A stretch of DNA of 42,848 nucleotides, from contig JAFZWG010000068.1 in assembly GCA_017617395.1 (NCBI GenBank), positions 1-42,848 on the forward strand, given 5' to 3'. The stretch is from Lachnospiraceae bacterium (GTDB taxonomy: Bacteria; Bacillota; Clostridia; Lachnospirales; Lachnospiraceae). Shown piece after piece: positions 4,656 through 42,637 of this stretch (its first letter is position 1; each line of letters begins with the position of its first letter). The translations under genes and the position numbers were made by a program. Below the pieces are notes generated by a model. The model ran no database searches, was not told the DNA's origin, and worked only from the letters and a program-made list of their open reading frames with translations.

Positions 4656-4969
4656 AGACGATGAAAAACGGGAACAACTGGACCGCGTATTACGATCCTG
4701 ATACCGGGCGGTATTTTGCGCAGATCATGTATACGAGCCGGGAGGGTCGCGAGCAGTACAACTATGAGATCACGCAGGACATCTACAACCGGCTGGGTTC
4801 ATTTGGCGATGATAACGACAACGAAAGCCTGATCAGGACAGCAAAGATGACCTATTCGTTTGAAAACACGATGTACGGCACGCTCGGCCCGGAGAGAACG
4901 CTCTGGGATGAGGAGGCCAACGAATCGATGAAGAAGGCGGTTCGAAAGCGGGGTAAAGGAAAGAAGTAG
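4652..4969 (+). CDS. Unknown protein, second of a tandem paralogous pair
   Basis: A 105-residue basic-ended protein with YYDPDTGRYFAQI and YEITQDIYNRL, aligning with YDPETGLYTAEI and YEITKEIYEL of the gene before it. The spacing between the two motifs is nearly equal, so the pair arose by duplication. It starts at ATG 4652, overlapping the upstream stop by four bases. The C-terminus is Lys/Arg-rich (KKAVRKRGKGKK). The family is not recognised and no function is assigned. Confidence 0.75.
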   Translation: MKTMKNGNNWTAYYDPDTGRYFAQIMYTSREGREQYNYEITQDIYNRLGSFGDDNDNESLIRTAKMTYSFENTMYGTLGPERTLWDEEANESMKKAVRKRGKGKK

Positions 4970-5005
4970 AGTGGCTAGGCAGCGCGGCTGCAAGGAGGGA
5001 GAATT

Positions 5006-6112
5006 ATGAAGAAGGATTTGATTATTCTGGCAGTGCTGTTGCTGCTGGGCGGAGCAGCAAAGTTAGGCTATGAGATTTACATGAATACACGGGAGTATAC
5101 GATTGATGACATCAACGGGGTATGGACGTGTAAACACAATGACGGAAAACACTATGTCATGTATATCCACGACGGCCGTATGGATTTTATGAGGTATGAG
5201 AAAGAAGATGAAAGTGTTTCCGGTTTTGACTATTATCGTGCCATGACCATGCAGGAACTTCCGGACGGCACGTTTAACACATTTTCCTGGCGGGGGATCC
5301 CTGACCTGGAACGTTCCGAATCGCAAGGCTCCGAAGCTTCAATCTCTGATTTGTATGAGTTTGAATTCAGAAGGAACAGGATCTATCATCGATTAGTGAT
5401 CGCAGGGGAAAATGAATTTGTTCGTGCGACGGAAGAGGAATATTCTCATATCGTGAAGATGTCGAAGGAACTTGATCGGAGATATCAGCTTTCCCGGTCG
5501 GGGAAGCCCCTGGAAGTCGGAGAGGCGCATTGCTATACCCGCGTAGGAGCGACGGCAGATACATACGATTCTTTCCTTTGCGTTCAGATCACAAATCCCA
5601 ATTCATATCGTATCGACGTTGCGCATGTGAAACTGCGCTGGGATGGGTATTCCGAAGGAGTAACGGCGGCGGTGAGGTCTATTCCCGCGAATTCAACCGG
5701 AGTGTATGTTGTCGATATAACGTGCAGAGAACTGTTTGGCCTGGGAAAGACAATCGATCCCACGGAGTGCTCGGTGGAGTATAATGGCTATGCCGCATCA
5801 GCGGATACGAACGATAATCCGATTGTGGAAGTCACGGATTCCCGTGTGATCAAAGATGAATCCACGGGCAAGGTGAAAGCAGTCGAAGTGGATGCCAAGC
5901 CGGCGGACCTCGCGGACAACAAAGATTCCTACTATGATCTTTACGCTCTGTTTTACCTGCAGGGCAAGATTGTCGGTGTAGCTACGGGATACGGGAGTGT
6001 TGAGGACATTGACCAGCCGGACATCATGCAATATGTGTCTGAAATCAAAGAATATGACCGCTGCGAAGTCATTGTCGTGAACCGATACAGTTTACCAATC
6101 TATTCGCGTTGA
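5006..6112 (+). CDS. Membrane-anchored protein of unknown function
   Basis: A 368-residue protein with an N-terminal hydrophobic segment (about residues 4-26) and no lipobox cysteine, so it is probably an anchored extracytoplasmic protein. After it come a lipocalin-like stretch (DDINGVWTCKHNDGKHYVMY) and, from about residue 170, a region with alternating beta strands (VQITNPNSYRIDV, VEVDAKP) like immunoglobulin-type folds of surface lipoproteins. ATG 5006 follows AAGGAGGGAG. No known family is recognised. It lies 36 bp after the paralogous pair and may be co-transcribed. Confidence 0.7.
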   Translation: MKKDLIILAVLLLLGGAAKLGYEIYMNTREYTIDDINGVWTCKHNDGKHYVMYIHDGRMDFMRYEKEDESVSGFDYYRAMTMQELPDGTFNTFSWRGIPDLERSESQGSEASISDLYEFEFRRNRIYHRLVIAGENEFVRATEEEYSHIVKMSKELDRRYQLSRSGKPLEVGEAHCYTRVGATADTYDSFLCVQITNPNSYRIDVAHVKLRWDGYSEGVTAAVRSIPANSTGVYVVDITCRELFGLGKTIDPTECSVEYNGYAASADTNDNPIVEVTDSRVIKDESTGKVKAVEVDAKPADLADNKDSYYDLYALFYLQGKIVGVATGYGSVEDIDQPDIMQYVSEIKEYDRCEVIVVNRYSLPIYSR

Positions 6113-6114
6113 GA

Positions 6115-6228
6115 ATGAAAGAAAGCAACGGGAACAAGAAACGTTGTGAGAAACAGACAGGAGAACTGATCGGTGACACCGGAATCAACGAGGTGGAAGG
6201 AATGCTGGTGTATGTGCGCAAGGTCTAA
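6115..6228 (+). other. Short ORF of 37 codons, possible gene remnant
   Basis: An ATG-started frame begins directly after the preceding stop and ends at TAA 6226-6228. Its C-terminal part reads TGELIGDTGINEVEGMLVY, which looks like the end of a folded domain rather than random sequence. There is no good ribosome site. It may be the 3' relic of a lost gene; the family is not identified. Confidence 0.3.
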
Positions 6229-6277
6229 GAAAGGCATCAGAGGCAAATGAGCATCACGCGCAAGGGAGGAAAGAGAT

Positions 6278-6850
6278 ATGAAATCAAATTTTGGAGCCGA
6301 ATTTCTTCTGGGAATGGTGGAGATGCAGAAGAAGGCTGATGAAGCGCCATGGGCATTGAAAACGCACGACCTTCCCAAAGGAAAATGGAGAAGAGTGATC
6401 GATCCGGAAGAGGGAGCAGAAGCTTTCTTCGTCATTATCACCGATCATTACATTATCGGGGTTAAGACAGGACGTGTGATCTTCCTGAATCGGGCAAGCG
6501 GTAAGAAGCTCGATCCGATAAAAGGGTTTCATTACCTTGTCTCCGGGGATGTGAAGGCAGATGAATCCGAGATGGTTGTTTTGGAGCATGGAACGCATTT
6601 TCATGTTATTTCGCTTGATACCTTCGAGGTCAAAAAGAAAGTCACCTTGCCGAGGACTTTCATGGCATCGGACGTGTATTGTACGTATTCTGATGATGAC
6701 ACAAAACTCATAATACCGATCTCAAAATATGACTATGACCGAAGAGAGTACATATACTACCGGTGTGAGTATGAAACAATAGACTATACTCTCGTCAGTA
6801 AAACCGAAATAACAAGGGAAGAAGTAGATTGGTGGACAGACAGTAAGTGA
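6278..6850 (+). CDS. Unknown soluble protein with beta-propeller-like repeats
   Basis: A 190-residue protein without signal peptide or membrane segment. The central part alternates short strands and turns: FVIITDHYIIGVKTGRVIFL, then VSGDVKADESEMVVLEHG, then a stretch with HFHVISLDTFEVKKK. The pattern recalls WD40/PQQ blades, but too few blades are present for a closed propeller. The start ATG 6278 has AGGGAGGAAA. I do not recognise the family and assign no function. Confidence 0.7.
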   Translation: MKSNFGAEFLLGMVEMQKKADEAPWALKTHDLPKGKWRRVIDPEEGAEAFFVIITDHYIIGVKTGRVIFLNRASGKKLDPIKGFHYLVSGDVKADESEMVVLEHGTHFHVISLDTFEVKKKVTLPRTFMASDVYCTYSDDDTKLIIPISKYDYDRREYIYYRCEYETIDYTLVSKTEITREEVDWWTDSK

Positions 6851-6954
6851 TTCGTAAATATGCTTCAGAGTAAACGGGTATTCGGAAGAGAGCGTTGACG
6901 ATGATTTTGTCTATAGAAGTGAACTTTGTTTTTACGGGAGGTAGAGGACGGAAA

Positions 6955-7485
6955 ATGCAGCGACGCATGAAGCATGTAATCACAACAGAACGATTGGTGC
7001 TCAGGCCGGTTGAACCTGAGGACTTTGAAGCGATACACGAATACGCGAGCGATCCTTCCATCGATATGATGTTGTTTCTGCCGAAGACGGAGGAGGAGAC
7101 AAGGGAGTTTGTTGCATTTGCCGCGGCAGAGTGGGAAAAGAGCGAGCCGGAAGTCAGAGAATACGTCGTCCTGCGGGACGGAGAGATTATCGGCGGTGTA
7201 ACGCTTGAGAAGTGCGAGGAGGACCGGAGTTTTGAACTCGGCTGGGTCATGAGGCAGGACGCGAGAGGCAAGGGCTATGCCTCCGAGGCGGCAAAAGCGC
7301 TTGCGGAGTATGCCTTTGATGTACTGAATGCCAAACAGATACTGGCGCACTGCGACAACAGAAACGCAGCCTCCGAGAGGGTGATGCAGAAGCTCGGAAT
7401 GGTGCTGGCGGATGCCACGGGGACGAGAACGTACCCCAAAACCGGCGTGGAGTCCGGGGAGTATATGTATGTTCTGCGAAAATGA
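6955..7485 (+). CDS. GNAT acetyltransferase of the RimJ/RimL type (2)
   Basis: A 176-residue protein beginning with TTERLVLRPVEPEDFEAI, the typical opening of RimJ/RimL-like acetyltransferases. It continues with LGWVMRQDARGKGYASEAAKAL (motif A, acetyl-CoA binding) and NAASERVMQKLGM (motif B). Such enzymes acetylate protein N-termini or small amines; the acceptor here is unknown. I chose ATG 6955 because GGGAGGTAGAGG lies just upstream; the frame is open back to TTG 6895. The last residues are YMYVLRK, as usual for the family. Confidence 0.9.
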   Translation: MQRRMKHVITTERLVLRPVEPEDFEAIHEYASDPSIDMMLFLPKTEEETREFVAFAAAEWEKSEPEVREYVVLRDGEIIGGVTLEKCEEDRSFELGWVMRQDARGKGYASEAAKALAEYAFDVLNAKQILAHCDNRNAASERVMQKLGMVLADATGTRTYPKTGVESGEYMYVLRK

Positions 7486-7554
7486 GGGCTCGCGGGGCTT
7501 GAATAGATGCATCGGGAGATGCAAAATGCAAAACAGATGAATTGAGGAGAAAGC

Positions 7555-8280
7555 ATGGAAAACCGGTTTTCCAGAACGGAATTGTTATTGGGAGAGGCCG
7601 CGATGAAGCGCCTGGCCGAGTGCCGCGTGGCGGTGTTCGGAATCGGCGGCGTCGGCGGATATGTGTGCGAGGCGCTGGCACGCAGCGGCGTCGGAGCGCT
7701 GGATCTGATCGACAACGACAAAGTCTGCCTGTCCAACATCAACCGGCAGATCATCGCGACCGGGAAAACGGTCGGAAGATACAAGACAGAGGTTATGAAG
7801 GAGCGTATTCTGGACATCAACCCGGACGCTTCGGTGAACATTTACAACTGCTTCTTCCTGCCGGAAAATGCAGCGGATTTTCCGTTTGAAATGTACGACT
7901 ATGTGGTCGATGCCATCGATACGGTGACGGCCAAGATCGAGTTGGTGATGCAGTGTCAGAAGGTTGGCGTTCCGATCATGAGCTCCATGGGCGCGGGCAA
8001 CAAGCTCGATCCCACGCTGTTTCGCGTTGCGGACATTTTCAAAACGAACATGGATCCGCTGGCGAAGGTGATGCGCCGCGAGCTGAAGAAGAGGGGCGTA
8101 AAGAAGCTGAAGGTTGTCTATTCGGAGGAGACTCCGATTGTCCCCTCGCAGAGTGAGGAAGTGCCTTCCGGCGCTCGCAGATCCACACCGGGCAGCACGG
8201 CGTTTGTGCCGTCCGTTGCGGGATTGATCATCGCGGGAGAAGTGATAAAGGATTTGACGAAAACATGGATATCAGAGTAA
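7555..8280 (+). CDS. tcdA: tRNA threonylcarbamoyladenosine dehydratase TcdA
   Basis: A 241-residue E1-like (ThiF/MoeB fold) enzyme that uses ATP to cyclise t6A at position 37 of tRNAs to ct6A. The nucleotide-binding loop is GIGGVG (29-34), followed by the acidic LIDNDKV strand with Asp53 and the NINRQ motif (61-65) that typifies E1-like adenylating enzymes. The C-terminal GSTAFVPSVAGLIIAGEV segment is characteristic of the TcdA/CsdL subgroup. Length and architecture match the family. The ribosome site GAGGAG precedes ATG 7555. It stands alone without csdA/csdE neighbours. Confidence 0.93.
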   Translation: MENRFSRTELLLGEAAMKRLAECRVAVFGIGGVGGYVCEALARSGVGALDLIDNDKVCLSNINRQIIATGKTVGRYKTEVMKERILDINPDASVNIYNCFFLPENAADFPFEMYDYVVDAIDTVTAKIELVMQCQKVGVPIMSSMGAGNKLDPTLFRVADIFKTNMDPLAKVMRRELKKRGVKKLKVVYSEETPIVPSQSEEVPSGARRSTPGSTAFVPSVAGLIIAGEVIKDLTKTWISE

Positions 8281-8356
8281 TCGAAGACGCAATGTCGTTG
8301 CGATAAGCTTATGTGCCCGGATGTGCTGCAGCCTGTAGATTTCGGAGGATGACTCT

Positions 8357-8854
8357 ATGATAGACCGCAACCTTGATGACTGGTTCAATGAGGAGAACAA
8401 GAGACTCTTGTTTGATCCAAAAGAATATCCGTCGGAGTATATTGCGCATTTTTGTACGTATTTTACGGAATATCTGGAGGAAGGTGTCGTTGACTCTGAC
8501 TGGTGCTGGTCGTTTCCCGGGACGAGATACGTGATTATAGTGTATCAGCGGCATTCCGTGTACGAACAGGGACAGTGCATCTACCGCAATCGGAATTTTA
8601 CGGAGAAAATTGGGGTGCACAACCGGTTCCATAAGCCGGTCTATGTCGTGGCGGTTGATACAGAGTTGTATTACTCTGTTTCCACATGGGGAAGCCGCAA
8701 ACTGAGAAGCAACATTGTTCAGGGTGATAAGGACACGCTGAACGCGAAAGAATTTGAAAATGTCGAAGACGCAATCGAGTTGGCGAAGGAGTATTCGACA
8801 TGTGGCTATCGGACCGCTGTTTTGAAATGGTTTGAAGATTACAATCATTTTTAA
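8357..8854 (+). CDS. Unknown cytoplasmic protein
   Basis: A 165-residue soluble protein without signal or membrane segments. It is rich in aromatic residues (SDWCWSFPGTRYVIIVYQ, VYVVAVDTELYYSVSTWG) and ends with a helix and strand (VEDAIELAKEYSTCGYR). ATG 8357 has CGGAGGA upstream. I recognise no family. It sits between tcdA and a GNAT gene, each with its own ribosome site, and nothing in the context suggests a role. Confidence 0.7.
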   Translation: MIDRNLDDWFNEENKRLLFDPKEYPSEYIAHFCTYFTEYLEEGVVDSDWCWSFPGTRYVIIVYQRHSVYEQGQCIYRNRNFTEKIGVHNRFHKPVYVVAVDTELYYSVSTWGSRKLRSNIVQGDKDTLNAKEFENVEDAIELAKEYSTCGYRTAVLKWFEDYNHF

Positions 8855-8931
8855 GAGGCTTTGCAACTGCTGAGTTTTTGGGGATTGGCGGTGGACTCGG
8901 GCTGATATTGTATGCTATGTTGTGGCCTTAG
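8851..8931 (+). pseudogene. Possible PspC-domain remnant
   Basis: A frame overlapping the preceding stop reads ATAEFLGI, then GGGLGLILYAMLWP and a TAG at 8929-8931. PspC domains contain an AEYLGI-type helix and end in a G-x-G-x-LLY-x-x-LW-x-x-P membrane helix. Here the middle of the domain appears deleted and there is no start codon. The resemblance is by eye only and the piece is short. Confidence 0.3.
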
Positions 8932-8958
8932 GTACAGGAATGTTAAGGGAGGAATTCT

Positions 8959-38190: not shown

Positions 38191-38264
38191 CTGTTATTCC
38201 TGTCGAAATGATAACCGATGCCGGATGCGGCCAAGTTGGGGTGGCATTTTTCGCCAAAACCGTG

Positions 38265-38270
38265 TACAAT
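38265..38270 (+). promoter_or_regulatory. Probable -10 box of dusB
   Basis: TACAAT at 38265-38270 lies downstream of the coaX terminator. No good -35 is visible at 17 bp; GGCATT is a weak candidate. Confidence 0.35.
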
Positions 38271-38322
38271 AGGGAGCGGGCATCGCGTTCGGAAAATGCA
38301 TGCCCGGAAAGTGGAGATATCA

Positions 38323-39321
38323 TTGAGTTTTCGTATCGGAACAATCGAAGTGGACACGCCGGTTGCGCTCGGGCCGATGGCGGGGATTACCGACCTGCCG
38401 TTCCGGCGGCTGTGCAAGGAGCAGGGCGCGGGGCTTCTCTACACGGAGATGGTCAGCGCCAAGGGCATCATGTACAAAAATCCGAACTCGGCGGAACTGA
38501 TTGCGACGGAAGCAGCGGAGCGGCCGATCGGGCTGCAGCTCTTCGGTGCCGACCCGCAGATCATGGGAGAGCAGGCGAAGGTGCTTTCGGAGCGTCCGTT
38601 TGATTTCTTCGATATCAATATGGGCTGTCCGGTGCCGAAGGTCGTAAACAACGGTGAGGGTTCGTCGCTGATGAAGAATCCGAAGCTGGTGTACGACATC
38701 GTGTCCGCGATGGTGAAATCGCAGCCCAAACCGGTCACGGTCAAGATCCGCAAGGGCTTCGGCGGTGTCGAGAGCGCGGCGGAGGTCGCGAAGGCCGCGG
38801 AGGATGCGGGTGCCGCGATGATCGCAATCCACGGCCGGCTTCGCGAGGAGTACTACGCGGGGCACTCGGACTGGGGGTGCATCCGACGCGTGAAGGAAGC
38901 CGTGAAGATTCCGGTGATCGGCAGCGGCGACATCGCCTGCGCCGCAGACGCGGCGGCAATGATGCAGCAGACCGGCTGCGACGGCGTGATGATTGCGCGC
39001 GCGGCGCGGGGAAATCCCTGGATCTTCGCACAATGCAAGGCGTTCCTTGCGGACGGCACGGTGTTGCCGCCGCCGGACGATGAGGAGCTGTGCGAGACGG
39101 TTCTGCGCCATGCGCGGATGGCGTGCGACTTCAAGGGGGAGCGCATTGCGATGAAGGAGATGCGCAGCCATGTGGCGTGGTATTTTTCGGGCAGGCGCGG
39201 GTCCGCGGGACTGCGGCGCGCCGCCAACGAGATTGCGACATATCAGGGTCTTACGGAGTTGATCAGAGGGTGGCAAGATGACAGGGGGACAGTCCCCAGT
39301 TGTCATCTCGCCGAAAGATGA
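38323..39321 (+). CDS. dusB: tRNA-dihydrouridine synthase (DusB type)
   Basis: An FMN enzyme of about 332 residues that reduces uridine in tRNA D-loops. The opening VALGPMAGITDLPFRRLC, the catalytic Cys102 in NMGCPVPKVVNNGEGSSL, and the FMN phosphate loop GSGDI fit DusB. I prefer TTG 38323, which has TGGAG seven bases upstream; ATG 38296 would add nine residues and lacks a site. The last 15 codons (from position 39277) are not native: they read through a mobile inverted-repeat element that provides the stop codon. Confidence 0.92.
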   Translation: MSFRIGTIEVDTPVALGPMAGITDLPFRRLCKEQGAGLLYTEMVSAKGIMYKNPNSAELIATEAAERPIGLQLFGADPQIMGEQAKVLSERPFDFFDINMGCPVPKVVNNGEGSSLMKNPKLVYDIVSAMVKSQPKPVTVKIRKGFGGVESAAEVAKAAEDAGAAMIAIHGRLREEYYAGHSDWGCIRRVKEAVKIPVIGSGDIACAADAAAMMQQTGCDGVMIARAARGNPWIFAQCKAFLADGTVLPPPDDEELCETVLRHARMACDFKGERIAMKEMRSHVAWYFSGRRGSAGLRRAANEIATYQGLTELIRGWQDDRGTVPSCHLAER

Positions 39322-39345
39322 CACCTGGGGACTGTCCCCTTGTCA
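39279..39345 (+). repeat. 67-bp inverted-repeat (MITE/REP-like) element
   Basis: Two 27-bp arms (39279-39305 and 39319-39345) are inverted and match at 25 of 27 positions, around a 13-bp centre. Each arm is itself nearly palindromic with the core ggggacagtcccc between TGACA and TGTCA. Similar ggggacagtcccc repeats occur, from memory, between genes in many Firmicutes and are thought to be moved by IS200-like (RAYT) transposases. No transposase gene is in the window. The left arm and centre are translated as the end of DusB. Confidence 0.85.
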
Positions 39346-39362: not shown

Positions 39363-40751
39363 ATGAGAACTTCGAAGCGCGTGCTGAAGTACGCGAAGGA
39401 GCATTTTACGGAGGTGCAGCACACGACGCTCAACCCGGAGGGGCCGGGCGCGGTGCGCATTCATCTGGTGCCGCCGCGGCTTGAGGAGAAATCGGTGGCG
39501 GCCAGCATCGTCATTCTGAACGGGCAGTACGTGATTCCGGTGAACGTGACGTGGAGCATTTTGCTCACGGAGCTGATCCGCGAGATCAATTCGTACAGCG
39601 GGCGCGAGGTGAGCGATGCGGACGTCGAGGCGATCATCGCGGCGACGTGCAAGGCGATGAAGAAGGTGTATCCGTTCATCCCGAAGCAGTGGTTCCGCAG
39701 GGATGTCTACCGGATGATGACGACGTTCCGGCAGATCGCGTACGGCGAGGAAGTCACGGAGGAGATCGGCTATGTGAGCCTCGGAGACTACGCGCCGAAC
39801 ATGAAGGCGCCGCACCGGATGGATCTGATGGTGAGCGCGATGACAAGACGCGGAAAATGGCACTGCAACCTGCAGTGCGTGCATTGCTATGCCGCGGGTC
39901 AGACGCAGTCCTCCGAGGAGGAGCTCTCGACCGAGACGTGGAAGAAGATTATCGACCACTGCCGCGAGGTCGGCATTCCGCAGGTGACATTTACCGGCGG
40001 CGAGCCGACGATGCGCGAGGATCTGCCGGAGCTTCTTTCCTACGCAAAATGGTTCATCACGCGCCTCAACACCAACGGCGTCAAGCTCTCGCCCGAGTAC
40101 TGCGAGGAGCTGAAGAAGTCGTCGCTGGACAGCGTTCAGATCACGTTCTACTCCGACAAGGAGGAGATTCACAATAAGCTTGTCGGCGCGGAGGGCTACC
40201 GCTCCACGGTGAAGGGCCTTCGCAACGCGCTGGCCGCGGGGCTCAATGTGAGCGTCAACACGCCGCTGTGCACCGAGAACCGCGACTATCTGAGCACGCT
40301 TGCATTTTTGCACGAGGAGGGCGTTTTGTACGTGACGTGCTCCGGCCTGATCACGACGGGAAATGCAGCCAAGGAGTCGTCCGTGAACCTGCAGCTGACG
40401 AACGCGGAAATCCGCGAGATCCTTCGCAGCGCCGTGGATTACTGCGACAAGCACGGCATGGAGATCAGCTTCACGTCGCCCGGCTGGGTGGACGATGACT
40501 TCTGCAAGGAGCTCGGCATCAACACGCCGAACTGCGGCGCCTGCTTAAGCAACATGGCGATCACGCCGGGCGGCAACGTCGTTCCGTGCCAGAGCTGGCT
40601 CTCGGCCAAGCCGCTCGGAAACTTCCTGTCCGACGACTGGTCGGATATCTGGGACGGCGCAGTGTGCGCCGAGCGCAGAAAATTCTCCGCGGCGATGCGG
40701 TGCGAGTGCCCGCTTCGGATCGCGAGAGAGGAGGCGTGCAATGAAAACTAG
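39363..40751 (+). CDS. Radical SAM/SPASM enzyme, putative peptide-modifying
   Basis: A 462-residue radical SAM protein. The 4Fe-4S cluster motif is C168-x3-C172-x2-C175 (WHCNLQCVHCYA), with the SAM-binding VTFTGGEPTMREDL downstream. The C-terminal part is SPASM-like, with Cys391, 394, 409, 447, 449 and 459 available for auxiliary clusters. The N-terminal 150 residues (SIVILNGQYVIPVNVTW) are of a type I cannot name. ATG 39363 has AAGGAGG. It overlaps the next gene by 11 bp, and that gene encodes a Cys-Ala repeat tail, so thioether or other modification of that tail is the likely role (inference). Confidence 0.88.
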   Translation: MRTSKRVLKYAKEHFTEVQHTTLNPEGPGAVRIHLVPPRLEEKSVAASIVILNGQYVIPVNVTWSILLTELIREINSYSGREVSDADVEAIIAATCKAMKKVYPFIPKQWFRRDVYRMMTTFRQIAYGEEVTEEIGYVSLGDYAPNMKAPHRMDLMVSAMTRRGKWHCNLQCVHCYAAGQTQSSEEELSTETWKKIIDHCREVGIPQVTFTGGEPTMREDLPELLSYAKWFITRLNTNGVKLSPEYCEELKKSSLDSVQITFYSDKEEIHNKLVGAEGYRSTVKGLRNALAAGLNVSVNTPLCTENRDYLSTLAFLHEEGVLYVTCSGLITTGNAAKESSVNLQLTNAEIREILRSAVDYCDKHGMEISFTSPGWVDDDFCKELGINTPNCGACLSNMAITPGGNVVPCQSWLSAKPLGNFLSDDWSDIWDGAVCAERRKFSAAMRCECPLRIAREEACNEN

Positions 40752-41976
40752 GAGTGTGCGCCGGAGAACCGGCATTTTCCTCGCAACGGCGGCAGCGGTC
40801 GCCGCGGTCATCCTCGCGGTCGTTTTGTTGTGCGGCACGAATCACCGCGCGGCGGCCAAGGGCGACCTTGACGAGATCCTCAACTACACGATCACGATCG
40901 ACGTCAATTCGGACGGCACGCTGTCGATGCTCTACCATATAGAATGGAAGGTCCTCGACTCCACATCCGAGGGACCGCTCGAGTGGGTGCACATCGGAGT
41001 CGGAAACAAGCATTTTACGAAGCTGACGAAGCTGACAAGCAACATCAAAAAGATATCCACCTACCAGTCGAGCAGTGTGCGCATCGACTTCGACCGCAAA
41101 TACAAGGCCGGCGAGGTCGTCGTGTTCGAGTTCTCGCTGGTGCAGGATTACATGTACCAGATGAACATGCTCACGGAGGGCGAGACCGTCTACGAGTTCA
41201 CGCCCGGCTGGTTCGACGACTGCAAGGTCGACAAGCTGGTCATCCGCTGGAACGCCGACAAAGTCGAGTCGTGGTCGCCCTCGTGCGAGCTGGGCGACGA
41301 CGGTTACCTGACCTGGACCTCGAGCCTCAAGAAGGGCGGAAAATACAAAGTCCAGGTGACCTATGCCAACTCCGCATTCGGATTTAACGCGAACAAGTCG
41401 ATCGAGCGCTCGACGGGAAGCGGCAGCGGCTTCAGCCCCGTTGTCGCTATGATACTTTTCTTCTTCATCTTAGGCCTGTTCCTTCTGGCCATTGTCATGG
41501 TGTGTGTAAAGAGCTACTCGGCTGCCGCGAACTTCAGCGGTTCGTCGGAGAAGAAGATCGTGCGGACCCGCATCGAGTACTATCCGTCCTGCCCGGCCTG
41601 CGGCGCGCCGCGCCCGGAGGGCAAGGACAACTGTGAATACTGCGGACGCAGCTTCATCAAGAGCGAGGAGAAGATCGAGGAGAAGGACATTCCCGCGGAG
41701 GAGAGCGAGCTTCGCTCAAAGAAGAAGGACGGTATGTATCGCTACAGTTCGGTTCCGGACACCTACATGCGCGTGACCGTCATCAACGTTCCGAGACCGC
41801 GCAGTTCGGGAAGTTCGTCACATCGCTCCGGAGGCGGCTGTGCGCACAGCTCGTGTGCGTGTGCCTGCGCGTGTGCATGTGCCTGCGCCGGCGGCGGAAG
41901 AGCGGGCTGCTCGACCAAGGATTTCTACCATACGAACGTGACGCTGCGCGCGATCGAGAAGCACACGAAGCGGTAA
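40741..41976 (+). CDS. Membrane protein with zinc ribbon and Cys-Ala repeat tail
   Basis: A 411-residue protein. A signal/anchor helix (about 12-30) precedes a beta-rich outer domain (about 40-215) that recalls DUF2207-like proteins; a second membrane helix lies near 237-257. Then comes a cytoplasmic zinc ribbon (CPACGAP and CEYCGRSF, about 282-300). The tail has Cys367, a run of Cys-Ala units with Cys at 372, 374, 376, 378, 380 and 382, then GGGRAGC390 and a final KDFYHTNVTLRAIEKHTKR. The tail faces the cytoplasm, where the radical SAM enzyme would reach it. ATG 40741 lies within the end of the radical SAM gene. Confidence 0.85.
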   Translation: MKTRSVRRRTGIFLATAAAVAAVILAVVLLCGTNHRAAAKGDLDEILNYTITIDVNSDGTLSMLYHIEWKVLDSTSEGPLEWVHIGVGNKHFTKLTKLTSNIKKISTYQSSSVRIDFDRKYKAGEVVVFEFSLVQDYMYQMNMLTEGETVYEFTPGWFDDCKVDKLVIRWNADKVESWSPSCELGDDGYLTWTSSLKKGGKYKVQVTYANSAFGFNANKSIERSTGSGSGFSPVVAMILFFFILGLFLLAIVMVCVKSYSAAANFSGSSEKKIVRTRIEYYPSCPACGAPRPEGKDNCEYCGRSFIKSEEKIEEKDIPAEESELRSKKKDGMYRYSSVPDTYMRVTVINVPRPRSSGSSSHRSGGGCAHSSCACACACACACAGGGRAGCSTKDFYHTNVTLRAIEKHTKR

Positions 41977-42055: not shown

Positions 42056-42084
42056 TTGACATTCGACAAATGCTTTACTATAAT
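42056..42084 (+). promoter_or_regulatory. Strong sigma-A promoter of the str operon
   Basis: A perfect TTGACA (42056-42061) and a perfect TATAAT (42079-42084) are spaced by 17 bp, about 130 bp before rpsL. Confidence 0.93.
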
Positions 42085-42214: not shown

Positions 42215-42637
42215 ATGCCTACATTTAACCAGTTAGTACGCAAGGGACGTGAGGTTACGGCCAGCAAGTCTACGGCACCCGCTCTTCAGAAGGGTTTCAA
42301 CGCTCTTAAGAAGAAGGCAACGGATGCTTCTGCTCCTCAGAAGAGAGGCGTTTGCACGGCGGTTCGTACCACGACCCCTAAGAAGCCGAACTCGGCTCTT
42401 CGTAAGATTGCCAGAGTACGTCTCAGTAACGGTATGGAGGTTACGAGCTACATCCCCGGTGAGGGACATAACCTTCAGGAGCACAGCGTTGTGCTGATCC
42501 GCGGCGGTCGTGTAAAGGACCTTCCCGGTACCCGTTATCATATCATCCGCGGTACGCTGGATACGGCCGGTGTTGCTAAGAGACGCCAGGCTCGTTCCAA
42601 GTACGGCGCAAAGCGTCCGAAGGACGCAAAGAAGTAA
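42215..42637 (+). CDS. rpsL: 30S ribosomal protein S12
   Basis: A 140-residue S12, the decoding-site protein of the small subunit. Conserved blocks are [51 protein letters not shown] and [11 protein letters not shown]. The Lys residues in TPKKPNS and RVKDLPG, sites of streptomycin resistance changes in other species, are wild type. The start ATG 42215 has AGGAGGTAAT. It should be the first gene of the str operon (rpsL-rpsG-fusA-tuf), the rest lying to the right of the window. Confidence 0.98.

Follow-up and report, generated by a model that had tools for sequence, protein, structure and literature searches.

What does a radical S-adenosylmethionine (SAM) enzyme do beside a membrane protein whose C-terminus is a run of Cys-Ala units? 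The question is raised by a locus in a 42,848-nucleotide stretch of DNA from a Lachnospiraceae bacterium (contig JAFZWG010000068.1; the whole stretch analysed is called the window here), in which the gene of a radical SAM/SPASM-Twitch enzyme of 462 amino acids (39363..40751, plus strand) shares an 11 bp overlap with the gene of a 411-residue Cys-Ala-tail membrane protein (40741..41976, plus strand), the predicted substrate. Both open reading frames (ORFs) and their overlap lie where a first-pass annotation, made by a model from the letters of the window, had placed them. Sequence comparison shows the pair to be genuine and conserved; it has no name in the libraries searched, and it is more general than first supposed. 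We consider it probable that the two genes form a modification unit, in which the enzyme acts on a membrane protein that stays in place and alters its cytosolic tail, most likely through Cys-S-to-Ala thioethers.

The coupling of tail and enzyme was followed from both sides. From the side of the tail, DNA of one genome each from 84,980 species was scanned for CACAxxGRAGC, which returned at least 120 stretches; the 120 scan loci among the matches listed, along with 13 further stretches, gave 134 ORFs of at least 40 residues that carry the motif, two loci without such an ORF (L084, with an ORF of 34 residues, and L123) having been dropped. Twelve of the 134 do not continue with GC[ST]xK; the enzyme is present in 0/12 of their loci and they look like chance matches. 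The other 122 (118 unique, four sequences being seen twice) do continue in this manner, the tails of L039 and L114 being identical, as are those of L038 and L115; the enzyme was scored as adjacent when the two ORFs shared a strand and the gap between them was -700 to +900 bases. It lies upstream on the same strand for 95 of the 122 and directly downstream for three (L056, L091, L152), while five are extra tail ORFs beside a pair (L053, L055, L074 and L144 twice; one of only 71 residues) and 18 could not be judged, the stretch beginning in or just before the tail gene. The locus of Gemmiger formicilis (L068) is paired according to its genome and is still counted among these 18. Tails that regularly lack a radical SAM gene would have spoken against the first-pass annotation; however, 103 of the 104 judgeable tail ORFs among the matches listed share their locus with the enzyme. 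Some loci (L173, L144, L053, L055, L248) hold at least two tail proteins with one enzyme. In a sample of 150 genomes of the same family, 13 (the window's own included) have the tail partner, with the enzyme adjacent in 13/13; one more genome (G082) gave an outer-domain match of 27% identity with neither tail nor enzyme within 12 kb (L047), and the remaining partner matches were weak. A phylum scan of 398 genomes for four Cys-Ala units matched 17 genomes: in 13 of them a membrane protein has the repeat at its end, with the enzyme adjacent in 13/13, and in the other four (G638, G680, G735, G656; one locus each) it is a simple repeat or runs across another ORF, and no enzyme was seen. Since a reversed-pattern control also matched a few genomes (G656, G735, G797, G882, G907), some matches in GC-rich genomes are noise.

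Searches that started from the enzyme revealed the same coupling. In a class sample of 391 genomes, the enzyme was found at E 1e-60 in nine besides the window, and the tail stands beside it in six loci (L170, L171, L172, L173, where it occurs twice and upstream, L174 and L176); two genomes were not judgeable, one owing to a contig end (G345) and one whose contig ends in a Gly-rich partner stretch before any tail (G383). With G466 counted, the tail is present in 7/7 judgeable loci. In G466 itself (L178, about 4663-8953), inspection by eye showed the partner gene split by transposase-like ORFs, which separate the enzyme from the piece that carries the tail. In the phylum sample of 398 genomes, the enzyme was detected at E 1e-45 in 13 more, with the tail in 12/12 judgeable loci; the tail of L193 runs off its stretch, and L189, interrupted by N, could not be judged. 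Moreover, the enzyme and the outer domain of its partner co-diverge (Mantel r 0.72, 0/999 permutations, 42 pairs), and the genes overlap in 55 of 71 complete pairs, start assignment being approximate. There is no recurrent third gene: no other family occurs in more than 6 of the 71 pair loci, which span 3.6 to 15 kb. The two largest neighbour clusters dropped out once ORFs overlapping the pair were excluded, and were hence taken as ORFs lying over it.

In the window protein, which has cysteines at residues 31, 161, 182, 255, 284, 287, 298, 301, 367, 372, 374, 376, 378, 380, 382 and 390, the tail core runs from Cys367 to Cys390 (41839..41910, plus strand) and comprises six consecutive Cys-Ala units (41854-41889) and a GGGRAGC motif beginning at residue 384; a KDFYHTNV follower segment starts at residue 393 (41917..41940, plus strand), all at exactly the positions first described. 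In an alignment of 45 partner proteins (A2), the mean column identity is 27%, with C378-A383, G386-C390 and K393 invariant and Y396 conserved in over 90%; the tail is the most conserved partner region, in part forced by the search pattern. Because this pattern demands CACAxxGRAGC, the last units were left out when spacers were counted, and in 132 distinct tails (at least six cysteines and one CACA required) the X of C-X-C is Ala in 471 and Gly in 2 of 473 cases. Neighbouring Cys-Ala units differ in codons in 410 of 497 cases (tails with at least three C[AV] units); since Ala is thus retained while the codons change synonymously, we conclude that Cys and Ala are both kept by selection. Where cysteines of the tail stand further apart, most spacers read Ala-Ser-Ser, Ala-His-Ser-Ser, Val-His-Ser-Ser or Val-Ser.

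The pair falls into three groups. Group 1, the core (Clostridia and some others), has in most members the tail (CA)n-GGGRAGC[ST]xKDFY, with GRVGCSE in L176 and L178, and an enzyme with one auxiliary site. Group 2 (L185-L194) has enzymes 33-37% identical to the window enzyme, tails of the form ...CVSCACACVSCACACACAGG[RG]GAGC[AT]xK and an outer domain of the same family as that of group 1 (hhalign, 99.9%); its enzymes carry the extra CX2CX5CX3C cysteines of a full SPASM domain, the first of which is missing in one sequence. In group 3 (L195-L197, L214), the membrane protein is larger, its gene lies upstream of that of the enzyme, and (CA)5 with SSGGCT or GGGGCT stands at the very C-terminus; by hhalign its outer domain reaches 87.6% against group 1, 39.5% against group 2 and 91.3% against both pooled. 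Common to the three are the repeat, the closing Gly-Cys and the enzyme, and the outer domains are distantly related; the coupling persists in both remote groups, including the one whose partner is built differently. A follower of the KDFYHTNV type is absent from the remote groups and from L176 and L178. In 3/3 group 3 loci listed, the next gene after that of the enzyme encodes a similar protein whose start resembles a signal peptide (L195 2529-3452, L196 2419-3312, L197 585-1385); that of L195, the one tested, has no Pfam match. The 80 titles among the matches listed are mostly of Lachnospiraceae, Oscillospiraceae, Gemmiger and other Clostridia, with single titles for Saccharofermentans, Acholeplasmatales and Bacilli, two for Eggerthellaceae and several GC-rich chance matches; a named isolate, Gemmiger formicilis ATCC 27749 (L068, L252), is among the carriers. 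The pair is spread across Bacillota, and also Actinomycetota if the two Eggerthellaceae bins are sound, which is a lower bound resting on record titles, many of them of metagenome bins.

The tail is predicted to lie in the cytosol, where the enzyme is expected. The partner has an N-terminal signal peptide or transmembrane (TM) helix (40771..40836), a predicted extracytoplasmic domain (40858..41436) and a second TM helix (41440..41511), all on the plus strand. Both hydrophobic segments exceed a hydropathy of 1.6 in 45/45 homologues, and a third window rises above the threshold in 9/45. The cytosolic placement, which agrees with the first-pass annotation, rests on the net charge, higher downstream of the second TM helix in 42/45; Lys plus Arg average 1.09 in the 15 residues before this segment vs 3.33 in the 20 residues after it. 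The earlier description as a two-helix protein fits the two hydrophobic segments, yet cleavage of the N-terminal segment as a signal peptide may be common (33/45 homologues have an AxA-like site by a crude test), so that the partner may be single-pass. Likewise, the zinc-ribbon-like CxxC...CxxC reported earlier (residues 284-301; 41590..41643, plus strand) is real in the window protein but optional, being found by a motif test in 19/45 aligned homologues. The outer domain and TM segments are retained though divergent. The outer domain of groups 1 and 2 is perhaps distantly similar to DUF2207 (PF09972): in Pfam the window protein scores 16.9 bits against a gathering cut-off of 24.4, so membership was not accepted, while hhalign comparison with PF09972 proteins (18 of 20 fetched loci) gave 66.6% for group 1 alone (29 columns), 43.7% for group 2 alone, 87.9% for both pooled and 1.1% for group 3, and a distant kinship is possible. 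Both families have a low-complexity C-terminal tail, but in 11 of the 18 DUF2207 proteins this tail is Gly-rich and the last 60 residues hold 0 or 1 Cys, the other 7 ending otherwise or running off the stretch. The membrane protein profile found no relative in PDB (best E 0.11), and NCBIfam gave no match for the window partner nor for any of four tail proteins scanned.

The window enzyme is assigned by its cysteine motifs to the radical SAM/SPASM-Twitch enzymes, and Pfam matches above cut-off to Radical_SAM (PF04055, 80.1 bits vs 29.5) and SPASM (PF13186, 29.1 vs 21.5) bear out the identity first given to it. The CX3CX2C motif (Cys168/172/175; 39864..39887, plus strand) is present in 41/41 members of a core alignment (A1) and 20/20 sequences of a cross-group alignment, from which L193 (a run of N) and L214 were omitted. 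Of the C-terminal auxiliary cluster site (Cys391, Cys394, Cys409 and Cys449; 40533..40709, plus strand), residues 391, 409 and 449 are likewise invariant (41/41; 20/20), while Cys394 is found in 32/41; three invariant cysteines with a variable fourth would fit an open coordination site. The N-terminal domain (39363..39812, plus strand), with a conserved NG...P motif within the first 150 residues, is a candidate recognition element (RRE) of the PqqD-like kind known from ribosomally synthesised and post-translationally modified peptides (RiPPs). Its hhalign match to 19 of 20 fetched PF05402 proteins reached 31% for group 1, 0.6% for group 2 alone and 80% for group 3, and, when pooled, 87% for groups 2 and 3 and 78% for all groups. 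In a column-shuffle control, 60/60 shuffles scored below the real match in the four sets tested (group 2 alone excluded), and when scored window by window the first enzyme windows reached 25, vs 6-17 for the enzyme from alignment column 120 on and for all membrane-protein windows. Since shuffling breaks helical periodicity, the RRE is graded as plausible at most; the domain has no PqqD match in Pfam and no useful sequence match in PDB (best E 0.068). Among solved structures, the enzyme profile comes closest to that of the sactisynthase SkfB (6efn, E 8e-22). In NCBIfam, the best 25 of 68 enzyme matches all lie far under their cut-offs, and neither enzyme nor partner reaches the cut-off of any named maturase or precursor family.

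Given the coupling, along with the conservation of the repeat, we hold it very probable that the tail is the substrate of the enzyme. What is made of it can be approached from related enzymes: SkfB is described as an RRE, a radical SAM domain and a Twitch domain with one auxiliary cluster, and CteB as having an open auxiliary site at which a substrate-derived cysteine, not shown to be the bond-forming one, was bound in the crystal (PMC6231123). The sactisynthase RumMC2 is reported still to make thioethers with Ala at the acceptor position, which AlbA and SkfB tolerate too (PMC8188230), and TvgB illustrates that a radical SAM enzyme can work repeatedly along a repeat (PMC9062424). In the reading that we consider probable, insertion of the membrane protein would leave its folded domain outside and the Gly/Ser/Cys-rich tail inside the cell, where the enzyme made from the overlapping gene would recognise the tail and, using its SAM cluster and auxiliary cluster, alter Cys-Ala units repeatedly. 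The most likely reaction would be abstraction of the alpha-hydrogen of Ala and capture by the thiol of a tail cysteine, giving several thioether cross-links with 2 Da lost per link; the repeat, floppy before, would become a stapled rod that bears thiols. The protein would then stay in the membrane, and the modified tail might bind metal or sense the redox or metal state at the inner face. We regard a thioether as the product as close to an even call, and a metal or redox role of the modified tail as rather doubtful. Several points weigh against the proposed thioether unit. The strict Cys-Ala alternation is unlike the spacing in known sactipeptides; the RRE match, weak in the group to which the window enzyme belongs, is lost when group 2 is taken alone; the similarity to SkfB is generic, the top NCBIfam match (best 25 of 68) being NirJ2 with 106 of 500 bits; and one tail gene (L082), whose ORF lacks the start of the outer domain, has no enzyme in its locus or at E 1e-40 in its genome. 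In addition, Ala at the acceptor position is reported to have reduced the yield of RumMC2 (PMC8188230).

Among the alternatives, the one that survives best, unlikely as we judge it, is that the repeat undergoes a different radical modification, for instance oxidation of Cys/Ala side chains, C-C linking or other sulfur chemistry; the reactions of SPASM/Twitch enzymes are many and, according to PMC6231123, similarity networks do not predict which one is catalysed, but no specific feature favours any one of them here. Somewhat less probable is that the enzyme epimerises Ala to give alternating L-Cys/D-Ala, so that the tail would take on an unusual helical or sheet fold with its thiols in a row. 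The near-invariant Ala between cysteines would suit a dyad-reading epimerase, and the core clostridial enzymes have a single invariant cysteine outside the cluster motifs, Cys303 (41/41), which recalls the epimerase YydG, described as using an enzyme cysteine as hydrogen donor and having one extra cluster (PMC5682303). However, this residue is confined to the core group: its place is taken by Val in three deeper members and by Thr in 12/12 remote-group sequences, that is, replaced in 15/20 of the cross-group alignment, in which no cysteine outside the cluster motifs is universal, and the partners of the remote groups keep the repeat where seen. An epimerase that needs Cys303 is therefore disfavoured, and the family-conserved hydrogen-donor cysteine of the YydG type is not found.

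We consider it improbable that the tail stays unmodified and serves as a Cys-rich arm for binding metal, the enzyme having another target. CXC runs generally bind soft metals, and 132 tail segments hold 6 to 11 cysteines, zinc-ribbon cysteines being included in some; however, such an arm should not require Ala at every second place, as seen in 471 of 473 spacers, and we infer that plain metal binding would not need it, nor should such an arm require a tightly linked radical SAM gene. Equally improbable is that the membrane domain serves as leader or guide for a precursor tail, which would leave the cell as a free RiPP after modification and cleavage. The sactisynthases that the enzyme resembles are described as acting on peptide precursors (PMC6231123), and the tail is the best conserved region of the partner, with the reservation about the search pattern given above. 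Against this, the lack of any neighbour family in more than 6 of 71 loci means that no conserved protease or exporter lies close by, the outer domain and TM are maintained despite their divergence, and the repeat is followed by a further segment in groups 1 and 2, while it is almost terminal in group 3. An origin by chance or slippage, as a DNA microsatellite, was rejected, the codons being mixed while the residues are constant and the repeat being kept with the enzyme across distant genomes.

How does the pair compare with described systems? Sactipeptide and ranthipeptide systems have a short precursor peptide, with an exporter or protease nearby; here the enzyme adjoins a membrane protein about 300-500 residues long with a strict Cys-Ala repeat, and the most frequent neighbour family is found in 6/71 loci. 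SkfB, AlbA, CteB and RumMC2 are nonetheless like the window enzyme in the radical SAM barrel and in an auxiliary cluster domain with a possibly open site, and sactisynthases share the extra N-terminal domain in the position of the RRE, the difference being that their substrates are peptides. CcpM with CLI_3235 is, as here, a clostridial radical SAM enzyme adjoining a Cys-rich product, and the first-pass annotation had drawn the comparison; however, the window enzyme scores 21 bits against the 500-bit cut-off of TIGR04068, the partner is without an NCBIfam match and there is no free peptide, so this kinship was rejected. The first interpretation thus stands for the coupling and the predicted cytosolic tail, and falls for CcpM and for the zinc ribbon as a core part. 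HxsA with HxsB/HxsC likewise places a radical SAM enzyme beside a repeat-bearing substrate, but with the HxsC model the window enzyme scores no more than 68.5 of 267.9 bits. The same arrangement is described for TvgA/TvgB, in which the TvgA repeat is TVGG (PMC9062424). The nearest published idea is that of TIGR04222 proteins beside MNIO (DUF692) enzymes, where a membrane protein with a Cys-bearing low-complexity C-terminus is likewise proposed as substrate (PMC12452194). It differs in the enzyme class and in the tail, which is Ser/Gly-rich with scattered Cys and predicted to be periplasmic, and 490 of 1372 TIGR04222 genomes are reported without an MNIO enzyme (PMC12452194). Membership in that system was rejected, since the four tail proteins scanned have no NCBIfam match and the neighbour is a radical SAM enzyme. 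In the literature searched, no Cys-Ala-tail/radical SAM system was found among the matches listed, in keeping with the earlier suggestion that the system may be undescribed.

Radical chemistry of the RiPP type is commonly seen as leading to secreted peptides; in these rumen and gut bacteria, it seems to be bound up with a membrane protein that stays in place. It is conceivable, and we put it forward tentatively, that the tail becomes a covalent array on a resident membrane protein, either of stacked thioether rungs or of alternating L-Cys/D-Ala with a file of thiols, which would be an enzyme-built metal or redox organ on a membrane receptor and a modification outside natural products, across Bacillota (and Actinomycetota, subject to the same two bins). 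If so, modification of resident proteins would be added to what radical SAM maturases do, a repeated and easily assayed substrate for processive radical catalysis would be at hand, and a widespread pair of unnamed genes would be explained.

In the window, the pair is flanked by a dus-type gene (38218-39321; TIGR00737, 353.3 bits, cut-off 293.3) and, on the other side, by the gene of ribosomal protein S12 (42215-42637). The genome from which the window comes (2.34 Mb, 97 contigs, 85.2% complete) contains one full copy of the tail partner; five further matches are weak (E 6.4e-5 or worse) and confined to the part with the second TM and zinc ribbon. It also holds another radical SAM gene (G000:C82:50626-51948; L275, L277), which scores 150 bits with the CcpM model against the cut-off of 500. 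Spread by plasmid or phage was rejected: no plasmid match was obtained at E 1e-30, and the sole phage-labelled record that carries the pair, MT837216.1 (L274; 7.4 kb, Bacteriophage sp., unverified, human faeces, unannotated), is probably bacterial DNA, because the end of its tail protein matches that of the Gemmiger formicilis genome (L252). Two near-identical GGGGACWGTCCCC palindromes (39285-39297 and 39327-39339), for which 0.03 matches would be expected by chance, form a larger inverted repeat; they lie where the dus-type gene ends and immediately ahead of the ribosome site of the enzyme gene. A perfect TTGACA-17-TATAAT promoter-like site (42056-42084) lies ahead of the S12 gene.

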